Assembly (NCBI RefSeq): GCF_020886695.1
Contig: NZ_AP024485.1
Coordinates: forward strand, 3,043,001-3,107,000
Source: Pseudodesulfovibrio sediminis
GTDB lineage: Bacteria > Desulfobacterota > Desulfovibrionia > Desulfovibrionales > Desulfovibrionaceae
Direction of reading: 5' to 3'
DNA length: 64,000 nt
The notes beneath the pieces are model-generated. The model saw nothing but the letters and a program-made list of their open reading frames with translations. It made no database searches and was not told the DNA's origin. A program made the position numbers and the translations under genes. Each line of letters begins with the position of its first letter. Positions within the stretch are counted from its first letter, which is position 1. Shown piece after piece: positions 54,635 to 60,499 of the stretch.

Positions 54635-55093
54635 CTAGATGAAGTCGCCTTCCATGAAGACATAGTTAACTCTTGCCTCAGCGAGCATCTGTTCGGAGAG
54701 TTCGTCCGGGTAGTTTTCGGCGAAATAGATATTCCGCACTTCGCAGTTGATGAGCATCTTGGTGCACAGGATACACGGTTTCGTTGTGCAGTAGATGTCG
54801 CATCCCTTGAGGTCGAGGCTGTGGGTGGCGGCCTGGATGATGACATTCTGCTCGGCGTGCAGTCCACGGCACAGCTCGTGGCGTTCTCCGGAAGGAATAC
54901 CGAGTTTGTCGCGGATGCAGCCCACCTCTTCGCAGTGGGCAACATTTGAGGGCACGCCGTTATAGCCTGTTGCCAGGATACGTTTGCCGCCAACGGCGAT
55001 GGCGCCGACGGCGCGTCGGGTACATGTGGAGCGCTGGGCCACCAGGTGGGCGATGCGCATGAAATATTCGGGCCAGGGCAGTCTGCTTTGCAT
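54635..55093 (-). CDS. dCMP deaminase / ComEB-like cytidine deaminase
   Basis: 152 residues. Zinc deaminase motifs [11 protein letters not shown] and [10 protein letters not shown], plus [20 protein letters not shown]. dCMP deaminases supply dUMP for thymidylate. It heads the operon with ribD and ribE; this neighbourhood is common in Desulfovibrio-type genomes (from memory). Confidence 0.9.
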
Positions 55094-55212: not shown

Positions 55213-55248
55213 TTCGCTCCGACCGGAGCGAAGAGTCTAGAAGCTTCA
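55213..55248 (-). promoter_or_regulatory. candidate bacterial SECIS element and UGA of the FmdB-like gene
   Basis: The UGA is at 55246-55248. Thirteen nt later a perfect 8-bp stem UUCGCUCC / GGAGCGAA encloses the loop GGUC (minus strand, 55232-55213), with the loop starting 22 nt after UGA. The GGUC loop matches the core of the well-studied E. coli fdhF SECIS loop that SelB binds. No U tract follows, so it does not look like a terminator. The hairpin extends past the TAG stop at 55237-55239. Confidence 0.72.
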
Positions 55249-55452
55249 GCCACCACCGAAACAATCGCTGCCCATATTCTGCATGGAGGGGAGGCCGGAA
55301 GCACCGCCGTCGACCTTTGCAGCGCATGCGCTGATGCATTTTTCGGTCTTGTCCGATCCACACTTCGGACAGGCTGCTTGCTGATCCTGGCCGAGTAGCA
55401 GCTCTTCAAAATCGTTCTTGCATTCCTGACAGACGTATTCGAAAATCGGCAT
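55237..55452 (-). CDS. FmdB-family zinc ribbon selenoprotein (UGA near C-terminus)
   Basis: Read through UGA at codon 69, it is 71 residues: MPIFEYVCQECKNDFEELL, CxxC pairs (CQEC; CPKC), then ISACAAKVDGG, and the end DCFGGG-U-SF. Read as stop, the protein is 68 residues and loses only USF. Sister FmdB proteins usually end in a Cys/Gly-rich tail, so a Cys is expected at the UGA. The SECIS-like hairpin just downstream supports selenocysteine. ATG 55452 is preceded by AAGGA. It diverges from the sigma-54-type gene at 55738. An ordinary UGA stop remains the alternative. Confidence 0.72.
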
Positions 55453-55539
55453 AGATAGATCCTTTGTGTTTGCGTGTCCCTATCGATAAATTAAATGAGC
55501 TGTGCAAGGGGATGTTGTCAAGTCGGCGCGCTTGCACTT

Positions 55540-55556
55540 TGCACAAAATGTGTGCA
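55540..55556. promoter_or_regulatory. palindromic upstream activator site 1
   Basis: TGCACA-AAATG-TGTGCA, a perfect 6-bp inverted repeat with a 5-nt spacer. It resembles the NtrC-type site (TGCACC-N5-GGTGCA). Its centre is about 118 bp upstream of the predicted sigma-54 transcription start, and 33 bp from the second site. Confidence 0.7.
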
Positions 55557-55572
55557 TTTATGTGAAGCAGAG

Positions 55573-55589
55573 TGCACAAAATATGTGCA
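55573..55589. promoter_or_regulatory. palindromic upstream activator site 2
   Basis: TGCACA-AAATA-TGTGCA, nearly identical to site 1 and exactly 33 bp (about three DNA turns) away, so both lie on the same helix face as expected for cooperative binding of an enhancer-binding protein dimer pair. The likely ligand is the ZraR-like regulator at 59108. Confidence 0.7.
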
Positions 55590-55639
55590 TTTTTTGCGCT
55601 TTGTGACTTTTTGTTTAAGTAAATTGGTGTGTTATGATT

Positions 55640-55655
55640 TGGCACAGCAAATGCT
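55640..55655 (+). promoter_or_regulatory. sigma-54 (RpoN) promoter
   Basis: TGGCAC-AGCAA-ATGCT. The invariant GG (55641-55642) and GC (55653-55654) are exactly 10 nt apart, with the -24 half a full match to TGGCAC and one mismatch in the TTGC half. Predicted start about 55666, 70 nt before the ATG at 55738. Confidence 0.78.
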
Positions 55656-55737
55656 TTATGCAGTAGCAAGAAGAAACACACTCATCTTCCTCTTTGCATG
55701 AAACATTTTACCCCCACCCCGCTTGAGGAGCTTTATT

Positions 55738-56274
55738 ATGAACAAAAAGAATATCACCATTACCGTTTCAGCCGCAGTCCTGGTTCTTGCCATGGCCGCA
55801 CTTGCAGTTGCTGGACCAGGGTATGGTCACAAAGCCGGACAGCGCATGGGCTCCAATCTCTATTCGCAATTGACCCCTGAAAAACAGGCTGCTGTCGACG
55901 GTATCTATAAAAAATATTCTCCCAAATTCACTGAGTTGCGGAGCCAGATGCTGACCAAGCGCGCAACCCTGCAGGCTATGGTCAACGGCGGCCAGGCGGA
56001 CGAAAAGAAAATAGGCAAACTGATCACTGCTATTTCCTCCCTGCATGAGCAGATGCTCGACACGCGTAACGCCATGGCTGATGAGCTTGAGGCGGAAACC
56101 GGCCTTGTCGGTTTTGGGCGCGGTGGAAACTACCCCGGCCCTGGCATGGGCTTTCAGGGTCGCGGACAGGGCGGCTTTGGCGTGGATTGCCCCGGATTCG
56201 GTCAGGGATTCCAGGGCCGTGGTCAGAATTGTTTTGGTGGCGACTGCCCCGGCTACGGCATGGGACGCATGTAA
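55738..56274 (+). CDS. ZraP/CpxP-like periplasmic protein with Cys-Gly repeat tail
   Basis: 178 residues. A signal peptide (hydrophobic SAAVLVLAMAALAVAGPG) is followed by a helical Spy/CpxP/ZraP-like domain (LTPEKQAAVDGIYKKY, RSQMLTKRATLQAMVNGG). The tail repeats GFQGRGQ-x-x-FG-x-DCPG-x-G twice. ZraP is a zinc-binding periplasmic chaperone controlled by ZraSR, and a ZraSR-like pair lies downstream. GAGGAG precedes ATG 55738. Expression is probably by sigma-54 with two upstream sites. Confidence 0.82.
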   Translation: MNKKNITITVSAAVLVLAMAALAVAGPGYGHKAGQRMGSNLYSQLTPEKQAAVDGIYKKYSPKFTELRSQMLTKRATLQAMVNGGQADEKKIGKLITAISSLHEQMLDTRNAMADELEAETGLVGFGRGGNYPGPGMGFQGRGQGGFGVDCPGFGQGFQGRGQNCFGGDCPGYGMGRM

Positions 56275-56432
56275 GTAACACTTTCCGATAACCCCGGAAA
56301 ACAGGACTCTGCGGGACGTGTGACCCTGGTGGTGACTCGTCCCGTAATGCTGCAATCCAGCGGGGAAGCGCTGGAAAAACCGTTCTGAGAAATCGGAAAA
56401 CAACCAAACATCGCCCCTTGAGGAGAAACTGG

Positions 56433-57254
56433 ATGTTGCGAAAAATAACGTCACTGACCGCTCTCATTTCATTCCTCGTCACCATCGTCACCAGCGTGGT
56501 GCTTTATATAGTCCCGGAAGGCCGCGTGGCCAACTGGGCAGATTGGCAATTGTTCGGCCTGACCAAAGGACAGTGGGGTGATACCCATCTGACTGTCGGC
56601 ACACTTTTCTTTATCGCGTTGCTACTGCATGTCTTTCTGAATCTGAAGCCGCTCATGGCCTACATGAAGAACAAGGCCCGCGAATTGGTCGTCATGACCG
56701 TTCCCATGATTATCAGCATCCTCTTGACCGTAGCCGTTTTCGCCGGAACCCTGCTGGGGCTGTCCCCCATGCAGGATCTCCTCGATCTGGGCACGGAGAT
56801 CAAGGCCGACGCTACCGAGATGTACGGCAACCCTCCCTACGGGCACGCTGAAACCAGCCCGCTCATGAAGTTCTGCGGCTTCCTCGGATTTGACGTGACC
56901 CAGGCTGTCGAGGCGCTGCATGCGGCTGGATATGACAGCTCCATCAATGAAAGATCCCTGATCAAGGACATCGCCCGCTCCAAGGGAGTGAGCCCGCAGC
57001 AGGTCTTCAATGATATCCGTATGGGACAGGACGCCGATCCTTTTGACACCATGCCGCTGAATCCGCCCGAAGGTACAGGCAAGGTGAATATTTCAACGAT
57101 CTGCATGACCTATGGTCTGGACAAGGACACGGTCTTTGAACGACTTGAGGCTGCGGGCATAGCGGCTGACGACACCAGTACATTCAAGGAACTGGCAGAA
57201 AAACACAAAATCTCTCCCAAAGAAATATATATGATTGTGAAGGGGAGTAAGTAG
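56433..57254 (+). CDS. DUF4405-like membrane protein with duplicated C-terminal domain
   Basis: 273 residues from ATG 56433 (GAGGAG upstream). Three membrane helices (about 8-28, 48-66, 80-105); the second carries two His 15 residues apart (THLTVGTLFFIALLLHVFLN), as in DUF4405 cytochrome-like proteins, so haem binding is possible. The C-terminal part looks duplicated: VEALHAAGYDSS...KGVSPQQVFNDI and FERLEAAGIAADD...HKISPKEIYMIV. It lies between the ZraP-like gene and the kinase gene, 6 nt before the latter. Confidence 0.75.
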   Translation: MLRKITSLTALISFLVTIVTSVVLYIVPEGRVANWADWQLFGLTKGQWGDTHLTVGTLFFIALLLHVFLNLKPLMAYMKNKARELVVMTVPMIISILLTVAVFAGTLLGLSPMQDLLDLGTEIKADATEMYGNPPYGHAETSPLMKFCGFLGFDVTQAVEALHAAGYDSSINERSLIKDIARSKGVSPQQVFNDIRMGQDADPFDTMPLNPPEGTGKVNISTICMTYGLDKDTVFERLEAAGIAADDTSTFKELAEKHKISPKEIYMIVKGSK

Positions 57255-57260
57255 GCTCAT

Positions 57261-59111
57261 ATGGAAGTTGCCCGTCGGGAAGGAAAAGAAAAAAGTCCTC
57301 TGGTTGCCCTGGTCCTGGCGCTTATCGTGCTGGGCTTGGGAAGCCTCTATTTGACATGGCAGTCCATTGCGCAGCAGCGCAAGATTGTCGAGGACCACAT
57401 GATCATGACCGGCAACTCCATTCTGCGCGGTGTGGATAACAACATTCTCCGCATCGCGCGAACCCTGCGTATGGGCCAGCAATCGCCCAAGCTTTTCCAG
57501 GCCATGGCGGAAGAGCTCTTTACCGAGCTGTCCAAGTCCGAAGATATCGTTTTCATTTCCCTTTTCGGAGCCGATGGCAAGCCGCTCGTTGCCTCTGTGA
57601 CCGATCAGCAGCCTCCGGTGTTCAAACTGCCTGATTCCGTGACTCAGGACATTGAGCCGGGCCGGGCCTGGCATGTCATGGCCGAGGTCGGCAAGAAAGG
57701 GGTGCTTATTTCCGGTCTGCGTACCCGCCCCGGTATCGCTACTCTGTCCGGCAGGCCGGGAGTGCCTCCCGAAGAAACTCAGGGTGATCATTCTCTGGAG
57801 CAAGGCTCTCGACGGCCATTCCGACTGGGGCAAGGCCTTGGGGCCGCTGCGGTGAACGAGAGCCAGGAGCCGCCGGTGTTTCTGGTGGTGGGGCTCAATG
57901 CGGAAAAGCATATGGCCCAGTATCGTCAGTATAAACGCGCGGCCACGTACCAGACAGGATATGTTTTCCTGGCGGCCGTGGTCCTGTGGTCGTTGGTCTT
58001 CGCCTATCTCAGACGGCGCGGTGCCAGCCGCAAGCTGGTTCGACTGGAGCGGTTTCAGAATACTCTTCTCGACAACATGCCGGACGGCCTCGTTACGTTG
58101 GCTGAAGACGGCGAGATTCTGGCGGCCAACTATTCGGCCAAGACACTCCTTACCCCGGAAGGGCGGGAGGGAGCACCCGAGATCATCGGGTCCAATTGGA
58201 GAGACTTTCCCTTTGGCGGCGCGTCGGAAATGTCCAGAATGTCCATCCCGTATGGCTGGCAGCAGTATGATTACCAGGGGCGTCAGCTCGAAATATTGTC
58301 TCTGCATCTTCAGACATACGACGAGGATGCCGCGCCGGAATTGGGACAGCGTCTTGTGCTGCTCCGTGACCGTACTCAGATACGTTCGCTGGAAGAAGAC
58401 CTGAACGAGGCCAAGCGGTTGGCGGCCATCGGATCTTTGGCCGCAGGCGTCGCACACGAAGTGCGCAACCCGCTTTCTTCCCTGCGCGGTTTCGCTCAGC
58501 TGTTCGCCACCAAGCTCAAAGGGCAGGCCCCGCTTGATCAATATGCCACCACCATGGTGCAGGAGGCGGATCGCCTTAACCGCGTGGTGACCGATCTGCT
58601 GTATCTGGCCAAGCCGCGTACGCTTGACCCCAAGCACATCGACCTGGCCAAGGTCGGGGATTCCATCCGCCAGCTCATGCGGTTTGATTTTGAAGGCAAG
58701 CAGATCGAACCGGAGTTCGATTTCGGTCCTGACCCGCTGTACGCCGATCAGGATGCTCTCAGGCAGGTGCTGCTCAATCTTATTTCCAACAGTCTGGACG
58801 CCATTGAAGGGTGCACCGATTGCCCCAGGCCGGGCCATATCCATCTTACATCGGAGCGCGGTGACGGCGGTGTCTGGATTATCGTGGCTGATGACGGGCC
58901 GGGAATGGACCCGGAACTCAGTGATGACGTATTTAAGCCGTTTGTAACGGGCAAAAAGACCGGCACAGGCCTTGGTTTGGCCATTGTGCAGAACATCATG
59001 CGTGCTCACAAGGGGCGTGCCGTTGTTCAGTCCCTGCCGGGTGAAGGCATGGAAGTGCAACTCTTTTTTCCCGATATGCCGGATGACGATCAGGAAGGTA
59101 TTGACATATGA
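57261..59111 (+). CDS. membrane sensor histidine kinase, ZraS/AtoS-like
   Basis: 616 residues. A membrane helix (about 13-33), a periplasmic sensor region (about 35-225), a second helix (about 230-252), a PAS-like domain (about 265-370), then HisKA with phospho-acceptor His near 401 (AAGVAHEVRNPLSSLRGF) and HATPase_c (ADDGPGMDP, KTGTGLGLAIVQNIM). Its stop overlaps the start of the sigma-54 regulator, so the two are a cognate pair. The ligand may be zinc or envelope damage by analogy; it is not shown. Confidence 0.9.
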   Translation: MEVARREGKEKSPLVALVLALIVLGLGSLYLTWQSIAQQRKIVEDHMIMTGNSILRGVDNNILRIARTLRMGQQSPKLFQAMAEELFTELSKSEDIVFISLFGADGKPLVASVTDQQPPVFKLPDSVTQDIEPGRAWHVMAEVGKKGVLISGLRTRPGIATLSGRPGVPPEETQGDHSLEQGSRRPFRLGQGLGAAAVNESQEPPVFLVVGLNAEKHMAQYRQYKRAATYQTGYVFLAAVVLWSLVFAYLRRRGASRKLVRLERFQNTLLDNMPDGLVTLAEDGEILAANYSAKTLLTPEGREGAPEIIGSNWRDFPFGGASEMSRMSIPYGWQQYDYQGRQLEILSLHLQTYDEDAAPELGQRLVLLRDRTQIRSLEEDLNEAKRLAAIGSLAAGVAHEVRNPLSSLRGFAQLFATKLKGQAPLDQYATTMVQEADRLNRVVTDLLYLAKPRTLDPKHIDLAKVGDSIRQLMRFDFEGKQIEPEFDFGPDPLYADQDALRQVLLNLISNSLDAIEGCTDCPRPGHIHLTSERGDGGVWIIVADDGPGMDPELSDDVFKPFVTGKKTGTGLGLAIVQNIMRAHKGRAVVQSLPGEGMEVQLFFPDMPDDDQEGIDI

Positions 59112-60499
59112 CAGATGAACGTATTGTCCTCGTAGTAGATGATGAACCGAGTCATAGAATGATGGTTCGAGCCGTGCTCGAAGATGACGGCTGGACTGTT
59201 CTTGAAGCGGGGTCCGGCGAGCGCGCGCTCTCGATGCTGGCGGAAGAAGCGGAGTCCGACACCTACCCAAGCGTGGCCCTGGTGGACATGAAGATGCCCG
59301 GTATGGACGGCATGCAGCTTTTGAAGGAGTTGCAGGTCCGGCGGCCCATCATGCCCGTTGTCCTGCTGACCGCATTCGGTTCCGTGGGCAGTGCCGTGGA
59401 CGCCATGAAAAAAGGGGCCTTCGACTATCTGACCAAGCCTGCGGACAACGACGAGTTGATCGCGGTTATCAGCAAAGCCTTTGAGTACCACAAACTGCTC
59501 AATGAAAACATCCGCCTCAAGCTGGAAGTCTCTGGTGAAGCGGATTTTATCGGTGCCAGCCCCGGGATTGAACGGGTCCGCGATCTCATCGGTCAGGCCG
59601 GTCCTTCCGAGGCTACGGTACTGGTCCTTGGGCCGTCCGGGACGGGTAAGGAGCTTGTGGCAGAGGGACTGCATCGCGCGTCCAACCGAGCCGACAGGCC
59701 GCTTATCAAGGTCAACTGTGCCGCTCTGCCGGATGATTTGTTGGAATCCGAGCTGTTCGGGTACGAAAAGGGCGCCTTTACCGGGGCCGTCAAAGACAAG
59801 CCCGGTCGGTTCCAACTGGCGGACGGCGGGACGCTCTTCCTTGATGAGATCGGTGAGATTCCCGGTGCCCTGCAGGCCAAGCTGTTGCGTGCGTTGCAGG
59901 AGAAAACCATTGAGCCGCTGGGGTCCGTTTCTCCTGTGCAGGTGGATACGCGCATCATTGCGGCCACCAACAGGAATCTCAAGAAAGAGGTGGATGCAGG
60001 GCGGTTCCGTGAAGACCTGTATTACCGGCTGGCCGTGCTTGAGATTCGCATCCCGCCTTTGTGCGAGCGCAAGGAAGACCTTCCTCTGCTGGTCAGTTTT
60101 CTGCTCAGGCGGTTGGGCAATAAAAACAACAAGATCATCCGTACAGTGACACCCGCATTTCTGGATGCCCTGTCCGATTACGATTGGCCCGGCAATGTCC
60201 GTGAGCTGGAAAATGTGCTGGAACGGGCGCTCATCCTGTCGCGGTCGGATGCCCTTGGAACGGATCTGCTTCCGTCCCAGATCACTGGTGCGCGTGAAGC
60301 GGAAATCCATATGGATATTTCTCCTTCCATGACGCCGACGCCGCCTGCTCCGGCCAACCTGGAAGAGGCGGAGAAACAGGCCATCATCCAGGCGCTGGAA
60401 GAGAACGGCAACCACCGAGAACGCACGGCCGAAGCCCTTGGCATCAGCCGTCGTACCCTGCAATACAAGTTAAAGAAGTACGGCCTGACCCGTCGATAA
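59108..60499 (+). CDS. sigma-54-dependent response regulator, ZraR/NtrC-like
   Basis: 463 residues. Receiver domain (about 1-120, phospho-Asp in VALVDMKMPG), AAA+ sigma-54 activation domain (about 143-370) with Walker A GPSGTGKE, GAFTGAV and Walker B DGGTLFLDEIGEIPG, and a C-terminal Fis-type helix-turn-helix (ENGNHRERTAEALGISRRTL). It overlaps the kinase gene by 4 nt. It should bind the two TGCACA palindromes upstream of the ZraP-like gene and open the sigma-54 promoter there. No sigma-54 site was found for its own operon. Confidence 0.93.
   Translation: MTDERIVLVVDDEPSHRMMVRAVLEDDGWTVLEAGSGERALSMLAEEAESDTYPSVALVDMKMPGMDGMQLLKELQVRRPIMPVVLLTAFGSVGSAVDAMKKGAFDYLTKPADNDELIAVISKAFEYHKLLNENIRLKLEVSGEADFIGASPGIERVRDLIGQAGPSEATVLVLGPSGTGKELVAEGLHRASNRADRPLIKVNCAALPDDLLESELFGYEKGAFTGAVKDKPGRFQLADGGTLFLDEIGEIPGALQAKLLRALQEKTIEPLGSVSPVQVDTRIIAATNRNLKKEVDAGRFREDLYYRLAVLEIRIPPLCERKEDLPLLVSFLLRRLGNKNNKIIRTVTPAFLDALSDYDWPGNVRELENVLERALILSRSDALGTDLLPSQITGAREAEIHMDISPSMTPTPPAPANLEEAEKQAIIQALEENGNHRERTAEALGISRRTLQYKLKKYGLTRR

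Follow-up and report, generated by a model that had tools for sequence, protein, structure and literature searches.

The 64,000-nucleotide window analysed here (the whole stretch of Pseudodesulfovibrio sediminis DNA, contig NZ_AP024485.1, positions 3,043,001 to 3,107,000) contains a short open reading frame whose TGA codon is followed in frame by two further codons and a second stop, which raises the question of whether this TGA terminates translation or specifies selenocysteine (Sec). The ORF (55246–55452, minus strand) comprises 68 codons and ends ...SDCFGGG at the TGA (55246–55248), downstream of which the gene reads AGC TTC TAG. The comparisons presented below make it very probable that the gene encodes a selenoprotein, i.e. 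an FmdB-type zinc ribbon in which UGA is decoded as Sec and translation ends at UAG. The predicted gene (55240–55452, minus strand, final stop excluded) would code for 71 residues with Sec at position 69, and the true stop would be the UAG at 55237–55239 (minus strand), following Ser-Phe.

The protein was assigned to the FmdB family on the basis of its similarity to TIGR02605 (FmdB zinc ribbon; 54.2 bits, cut-off 31.3) and PF09723 (49.6 bits, above the cut-off). The four ribbon cysteines (C8, C11, C28 and C31, arranged CxxC...CxxC) are invariant across 28 sequences from the genus. An AlphaFold2 model based on these sequences contains a confidently predicted ribbon (residues 1–40, block means 85–88), while the tail was modelled with low confidence (43–46) and is probably disordered.

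A predicted SECIS-like hairpin (55213–55232, minus strand) lies wholly 3′ of the UAG. Its 8-bp stem, UUCGCUCC/GGAGCGAA, begins 14 nt after the UGA and encloses a GGUC loop, which starts at nt 22 and which we take to resemble known SelB-binding sites. The preliminary description of this locus had reported a 68-residue zinc ribbon running through TGA and Ser-Phe to TAG, a stem and loop with these dimensions and distances, and the absence of a U tract; re-examination bore out all of these details. No T run follows the hairpin on the coding strand, and a scan of the minus strand between positions 55050 and 55760 called no terminator-like sites. The fold energy of the hairpin does not stand out from that of shuffled sequences (z −0.92), of which 37 of 200 fold equally well, and, not being significant for the window copy, was set aside as evidence; that the fold stands above chance follows from the cross-genome comparison of TGA and GG-loop hairpin counts. 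A covariance model built from the 28 genus sequences, the window copy among them, assigned 41.4 bits (E 3e-8) to the hairpin, and the next best match within the window reached 16.7 bits.

Decoding of UGA as Sec depends on dedicated machinery, and the preliminary description had named the sel genes as a point to be checked. The source genome (3,764,150 bases, one contig) contains selA (606 bits), selB (390 bits) and a tRNA-Sec gene (78.7 bits, gathering score 47), each above its cut-off. It also carries three formate dehydrogenase-type genes with a single in-frame TGA each: two alpha genes above the cut-off and a relative that matches more weakly (130 bits). The predicted apical loops of these genes, read from the folds, start approximately 19–23 nt past the UGA, as compared with 22 nt in the FmdB gene, and their predicted sequences differ from GGUC. 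Among relatives, selB was found above the cut-off in 34 of 36 genomes of the genus (both misses are 82% complete), in 27 of the 28 genus genomes with the FmdB tail, and in 29 of 31 tail-bearing genomes sampled outside the genus. The tail-bearing genomes in which it was missed (G023, G048 and G109) are assemblies of about 470, 430 and 230 contigs, respectively. Correlation of selB with the presence of the tail was rejected as an argument; it says little because the gene is already present in 126 of 149 genomes of the family.

The same architecture, i.e. an FmdB ribbon, a TGA and a short extension, was distinguished in at least 64 genomes: 28 of the 36 in the genus and at least 36 elsewhere, the latter representing at least 16 more genera and three families of one order. 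Genomes outside the genus were surveyed, non-exhaustively, with the covariance model across the class (348 genomes) and with profile searches (348 and 80 genomes). The class-wide covariance search yielded matches at E 0.01 in 41 of 348 genomes, 13 of them outside the genus; nine of these 13 carry the FmdB tail, one contains a tail on another protein (L180), and three matches (L181, L184 and L187) were discarded as chance. A filter for TGA followed by an extension of at most three codons flagged ten of 98 ORFs, including three Cys-rich-tail genes lacking the hairpin (L248, L258 and L262), which were not counted. Twenty FmdB loci from Acidobacteria/Acidobacteriaceae (one Candidatus Sulfotelmatobacter) or Nitrospira/Nitrospirae carried other tails and were of no help. 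Within the genus, all 36 genomes have FmdB-family matches, and the first stop of the 28 tail-form genes is always TGA. The genomes with the tail form include G010 (L085). The covariance model found nothing in the other eight of the 36 genomes (G001, G002, G005, G012, G013, G016, G027 and G029). Although seven of these eight have selB, all lack the tail form, which is thus dispensable. In a tree built from residues 1–46, with four differently tailed ORFs as the root, the Sec/Cys set required seven label changes, compared with a minimum of 29 for shuffled labels; as the largest pure clade contains only 27 members, a single origin is not claimed.

The loci examined contain 231 distinct FmdB-like ORFs, whose stop codons were compared. 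All 64 ORFs with the Gly-rich tail, each checked, stop at TGA, as compared with 44 of the 167 others (TAA 62, TAG 61, TGA 44), a contrast to which no probability is attached because the ORFs are related to one another. Homologues ending at this codon with an ordinary stop, which the preliminary description had regarded as grounds for abandoning a selenocysteine, were searched for among these 64 ORFs and none was found. The frame continues past the TGA for two codons in 45 of the 64 genes and for one codon in 19, and then meets a stop in every case (TAG 34, TGA 15, TAA 15). Consequently, the earlier placement of Sec three residues from the C terminus holds for the 45 genes, and in the other 19 the residue would be second from the end. 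In the genus the extension consists of two codons in 26 of 28 genes and of one codon in two, followed by TAG, TAA or TGA, and 20 of the 26 two-codon extensions encode Gly-Ile or Gly-Val. Across these 26 genes the extension varies least at its second codon positions (entropy 0.47 and 0.39 bits) and is variable at the third (1.07 and 1.12 bits), a pattern of constraint like that of coding DNA. The predicted tails conform to C-x(4-11)-Sec-(1-2 residues)-stop, with Gly-Gly or Gly-Phe-Ser ahead of Sec. The residues immediately before Sec are Phe-Ser/Arg/Thr/Gly (36 of 64), Gly-Gly (27) or Gly-Lys-Gly (one).

The hairpin was compared across relatives with a GG-anchored scan, which admitted uninterrupted pairs and loops starting 16–33 nt past the stop; it replaced an automatic fold that had picked other stems for L030, L031 and L049. 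Hairpins with a GG loop and a stem of at least 5 bp were detected in 48 of the 64 tail genes, as opposed to two of the 119 FmdB genes whose tails are of other kinds, a control set with 32 genes ending at TGA; shuffled 3′ regions gave 126 of 3200. At a threshold of 4 bp the number of tail genes rises to 55, and all 55 hairpins begin beyond the second stop, so that they fall entirely within the 3′ untranslated region. The loop of these 55 hairpins begins with GGUC in 43 genes and with GGUU in five. Where the loop is GGU[C/U] (51 genes), the two arms of the same gene pair at a mean of 5.73 of 6 positions, while arms swapped between genes pair at a mean of 3.97 and a maximum of 4.43 (2000 swaps). 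At stem positions 2 to 6, C-G, G-C and U-A pairs all occur. The predicted hairpin is thus conserved with compensatory change, a point on which the preliminary description had made its proposal depend. Nine tail genes have no uninterrupted 4-bp GG-loop stem; six of them contain a stem of 7 bp that closes a different loop at nt 19–21, and no clear stem was seen at nt 19–21 in L182, L324 and L330. One gene (L185) entered the count through a GG stem of 4 bp at nt 26, and its better stem is of 7 bp with the loop CGGGC.

Exchange of Sec for Cys, another check that had been proposed, was found in one genus (g43). Its G077 orthologue (L182) ends ...GCGGCKPSGG-TGA-Gly-Val-TAA, while the orthologues of G122 (...GCGGCKPGSG-TGC-Gly-TAG) and G104 (...GGCGGCSSGG-TGC-Gly-Gly-TGA), represented by loci L265 and L333, have a Cys codon at the same position. 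Over 73 aligned residues the proteins of G077 and G104 share 74% identity, and a tree of the ribbon alone places all three in a single clade (support 0.977). Both species with Cys keep selB. The preliminary description had also ascribed Cys in this tail to sister FmdB proteins. This applies to another FmdB-like gene of this genome, the paralogue L094, but Cys at the Sec position itself was found in orthologues of another genus only. The paralogue resembles the Sec gene in its ribbon and Gly/Cys-rich tail, but it ends at TAG and no such hairpin was found with it.

The surroundings of the gene bear on the role of its product. Divergently transcribed from it is a zraP-like gene (55738–56274, plus strand), whose product matches PF13801 (Metal_resist; 46 bits, above the cut-off) and scores 45.5 bits against the NCBIfam ZraP model, under the cut-off of 200. 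It is followed on the same strand by genes encoding a DUF4405 protein (56418–57254), a ZraS/AtoS-like sensor histidine kinase (57261–59111; ZraS 219.9 bits, cut-off 479; AtoS 218.5 bits, cut-off 646; both below) and an AtoC/ZraR-like sigma-54-dependent response regulator (59108–60499; PF00158, PF00072 and PF02954), which likewise remains below the cut-offs for AtoC (449 bits, cut-off 714) and ZraR (414 bits, cut-off 760). Downstream of the Sec gene lies a cytidine/deoxycytidylate deaminase-like (ComEB-like) gene (54635–55093, minus strand; TIGR02571 110 bits, below the cut-off of 219). In 22 loci of the genus, examined with flanks of 1.5 kb, the Sec gene is accompanied by comEB in 21 cases, by the divergent zraP-like gene in 21 and by a homologue of the DUF4405 gene in 20. 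Among 22 loci of other genera, a zraP homologue is present in eight, all in two genera, and no zraP neighbour was found within 1.5 kb in the other 14; kinase-similar sequences occur in eight of the 22, five of these beside zraP.

The region between the divergent genes contains repeated TGCAC/GTGCA half-sites (55533–55589), which, being kept in much of the genus, are probably an operator. Fourteen of the 36 genus genomes contain an exact 24-nt array, which in 13 of them is located directly upstream of the Sec gene. At the fourteenth locus (L343 of G005, G005:C4 near 361104) the zraP- and comEB-like ORFs are kept and no FmdB ORF of at least 50 residues lies between them, so that the FmdB gene looks to have been lost there. 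Upstream of zraP, the sequence TTTGGCACAGCAAATGCTTT (55638–55657) fits, by eye, what we take to be the sigma-54 consensus GG-N10-GC, in agreement with the presence of a sigma-54 regulator in the operon.

Comparative evidence strongly supports decoding of the UGA by SelB; it comprises the conservation of the UGA, the short extension with its coding pattern, covariation in the hairpin, the presence of Sec machinery and the Cys/Sec exchange. The product would be a zinc ribbon whose Gly-rich tail is flexible and ends Gly-Gly-Gly-Sec-Ser-Phe. On the mRNA, the GGUC-loop hairpin approximately 20 nt downstream would hold SelB with Sec-tRNA(Sec) while the UGA is decoded, and translation would terminate at the UAG two codons further on, which would leave the hairpin in the 3′ untranslated region. 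The likeliest task of the selenol would be soft-metal binding or redox sensing tied to the neighbouring ZraP-like and two-component genes; the selenol and the tail Cys would together form either a metal site or a selenenylsulfide. We infer this metal or redox role from the neighbouring genes, the tail Cys and the replacement of Sec by Cys. We know of no function established for the FmdB family, and the conserved ZraP-like link would provide it with a testable role.

A different role for the same selenoprotein is conceivable, in which the tail serves selenium-dependent regulation through short and long forms, not metal or redox chemistry. The extension is indeed minimal, and with Sec second or third from the end the short form would differ little from the long one. 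However, substitution of Cys for Sec in two species points to the chemistry of the residue, a tail Cys is kept 5–12 residues ahead of Sec in 63 of the 64 genes (L047 lacks it), and a metal-resistance gene is the neighbour in the genus. We therefore consider this alternative unlikely, a judgement that concerns the role only and falls within the selenoprotein reading.

It is very improbable that the UGA merely terminates translation and that the hairpin serves as a transcription terminator or mRNA-stabilizing stem. GC-rich hairpins are common past stop codons, and five of the 55 GG-loop hairpins are followed by at least five T within the next eight bases, as a terminator would be. The window copy and the other hairpins without such a run (50 of 55 in total) do not conform to this, and separate terminator-like stems with T runs occur further downstream in 19 of 63 genes. 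A terminator would also not account for the narrow limits within which the loop sequence and its distance from the UGA are kept, nor for the rarity of the hairpin in FmdB genes with other tails; an ordinary stop leaves the codon-like extension unexplained, as well as the fact that the first TGA is never exchanged for TAA or TAG. It is scarcely credible that the UGA is read as an ordinary amino acid or passed by leaky termination, with the extension made without selenium, since this would fit the conservation of the extension as codons but gives no reason for a G-rich loop to stand at a fixed distance, and the genomes use Sec and both orthologues with a replaced UGA (2/2) have Cys.

As a selenoprotein, the window protein has relatives in earlier surveys. 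The FmdB family is listed among selenoproteins on the basis of two GOS metagenome sequences with a CxxU motif (PMC2398784, in the portion of the article available), and reviews, likewise available in part, list an FmdB selenoprotein (TIGR02605) with the motif U/CxxU or UxxU (PMC9312934, PMC13188914). The GOS and window proteins belong to the same family, and both have a predicted bacterial SECIS element. In the window protein, however, the four ribbon cysteines are kept and Sec is added in the Gly-rich tail, and the CxxU/UxxU motif is absent from the 28 genus sequences; the CxxU of the GOS proteins presumably lies in the ribbon. The UXX-star and GUXX-star families (NF041114, NF041211 and NF041212) have, to judge by their names, Sec a few residues ahead of the stop, as in the FmdB tail; the accessible part of PMC13188914 gives the motif GxGU for NF041211 and suggests a metal-ligand role for UXX-star. 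None of the three models was among the matches listed, to E 10, for the window protein and three genus relatives (for one of the four proteins, the best 25 of 32), and none matched two relatives from other genera to E 0.01.

Tails of this kind were also seen on other proteins. The SO_0444 family of Cu/Zn efflux transporters (NF033936) has the selenoprotein motif UxC, according to the available part of PMC13188914. In a genus relative (G026), an ORF at L188:3-326 ends ...RRGG-TGA-Gly-Ala-TGA, with GGTC downstream in an apparent hairpin, by eye. The 108-residue fragment scores 102.7 bits against NF033936, below the cut-off of 300, and reaches model position 349 of 351; this family is a permease, unlike the FmdB zinc ribbon, but the L188 tail resembles the FmdB Sec tail. 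Similarly, an ORF at L180:339-665 (minus strand; G194) ends ...SSGGG-TGA-Gly-Gly-TAA and is followed by GGTC in an apparent hairpin, by eye; its product matched nothing in NCBIfam or Pfam at E 0.01. These two cases suggest, and do not prove, that the tail is portable between proteins. A more far-reaching conjecture, which we consider unlikely, is that the Gly-rich Sec tail with its 3′ UTR SECIS constitutes a portable selenolate tag on unrelated proteins, which takes over soft metal ions from zinc-ribbon chaperones in the cytosol and hands them to exporters, under ZraPSR-like control.

If read in this way, the FmdB genes add a selenoprotein subfamily, present in at least 64 genomes of one bacterial order, with Sec at a position for which none was known in FmdB, and ordinary gene calling would truncate these proteins by 2–3 residues. 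Codon constraint does not act on the hairpin, which stands outside the coding region, so its natural variants would form a clean data set on the needs of SelB. No earlier description of the FmdB tail Sec was found in the literature searched or in the NCBIfam scans. The deep-Sep study tested Salidesulfovibrio onnuriiensis IOR2, and the word FmdB does not appear in its main text as available (PMC12013277). In the accessible parts of PMC11227280 and PMC4807772, the symbol fmdB denotes a different protein, formylmethanofuran dehydrogenase subunit B.
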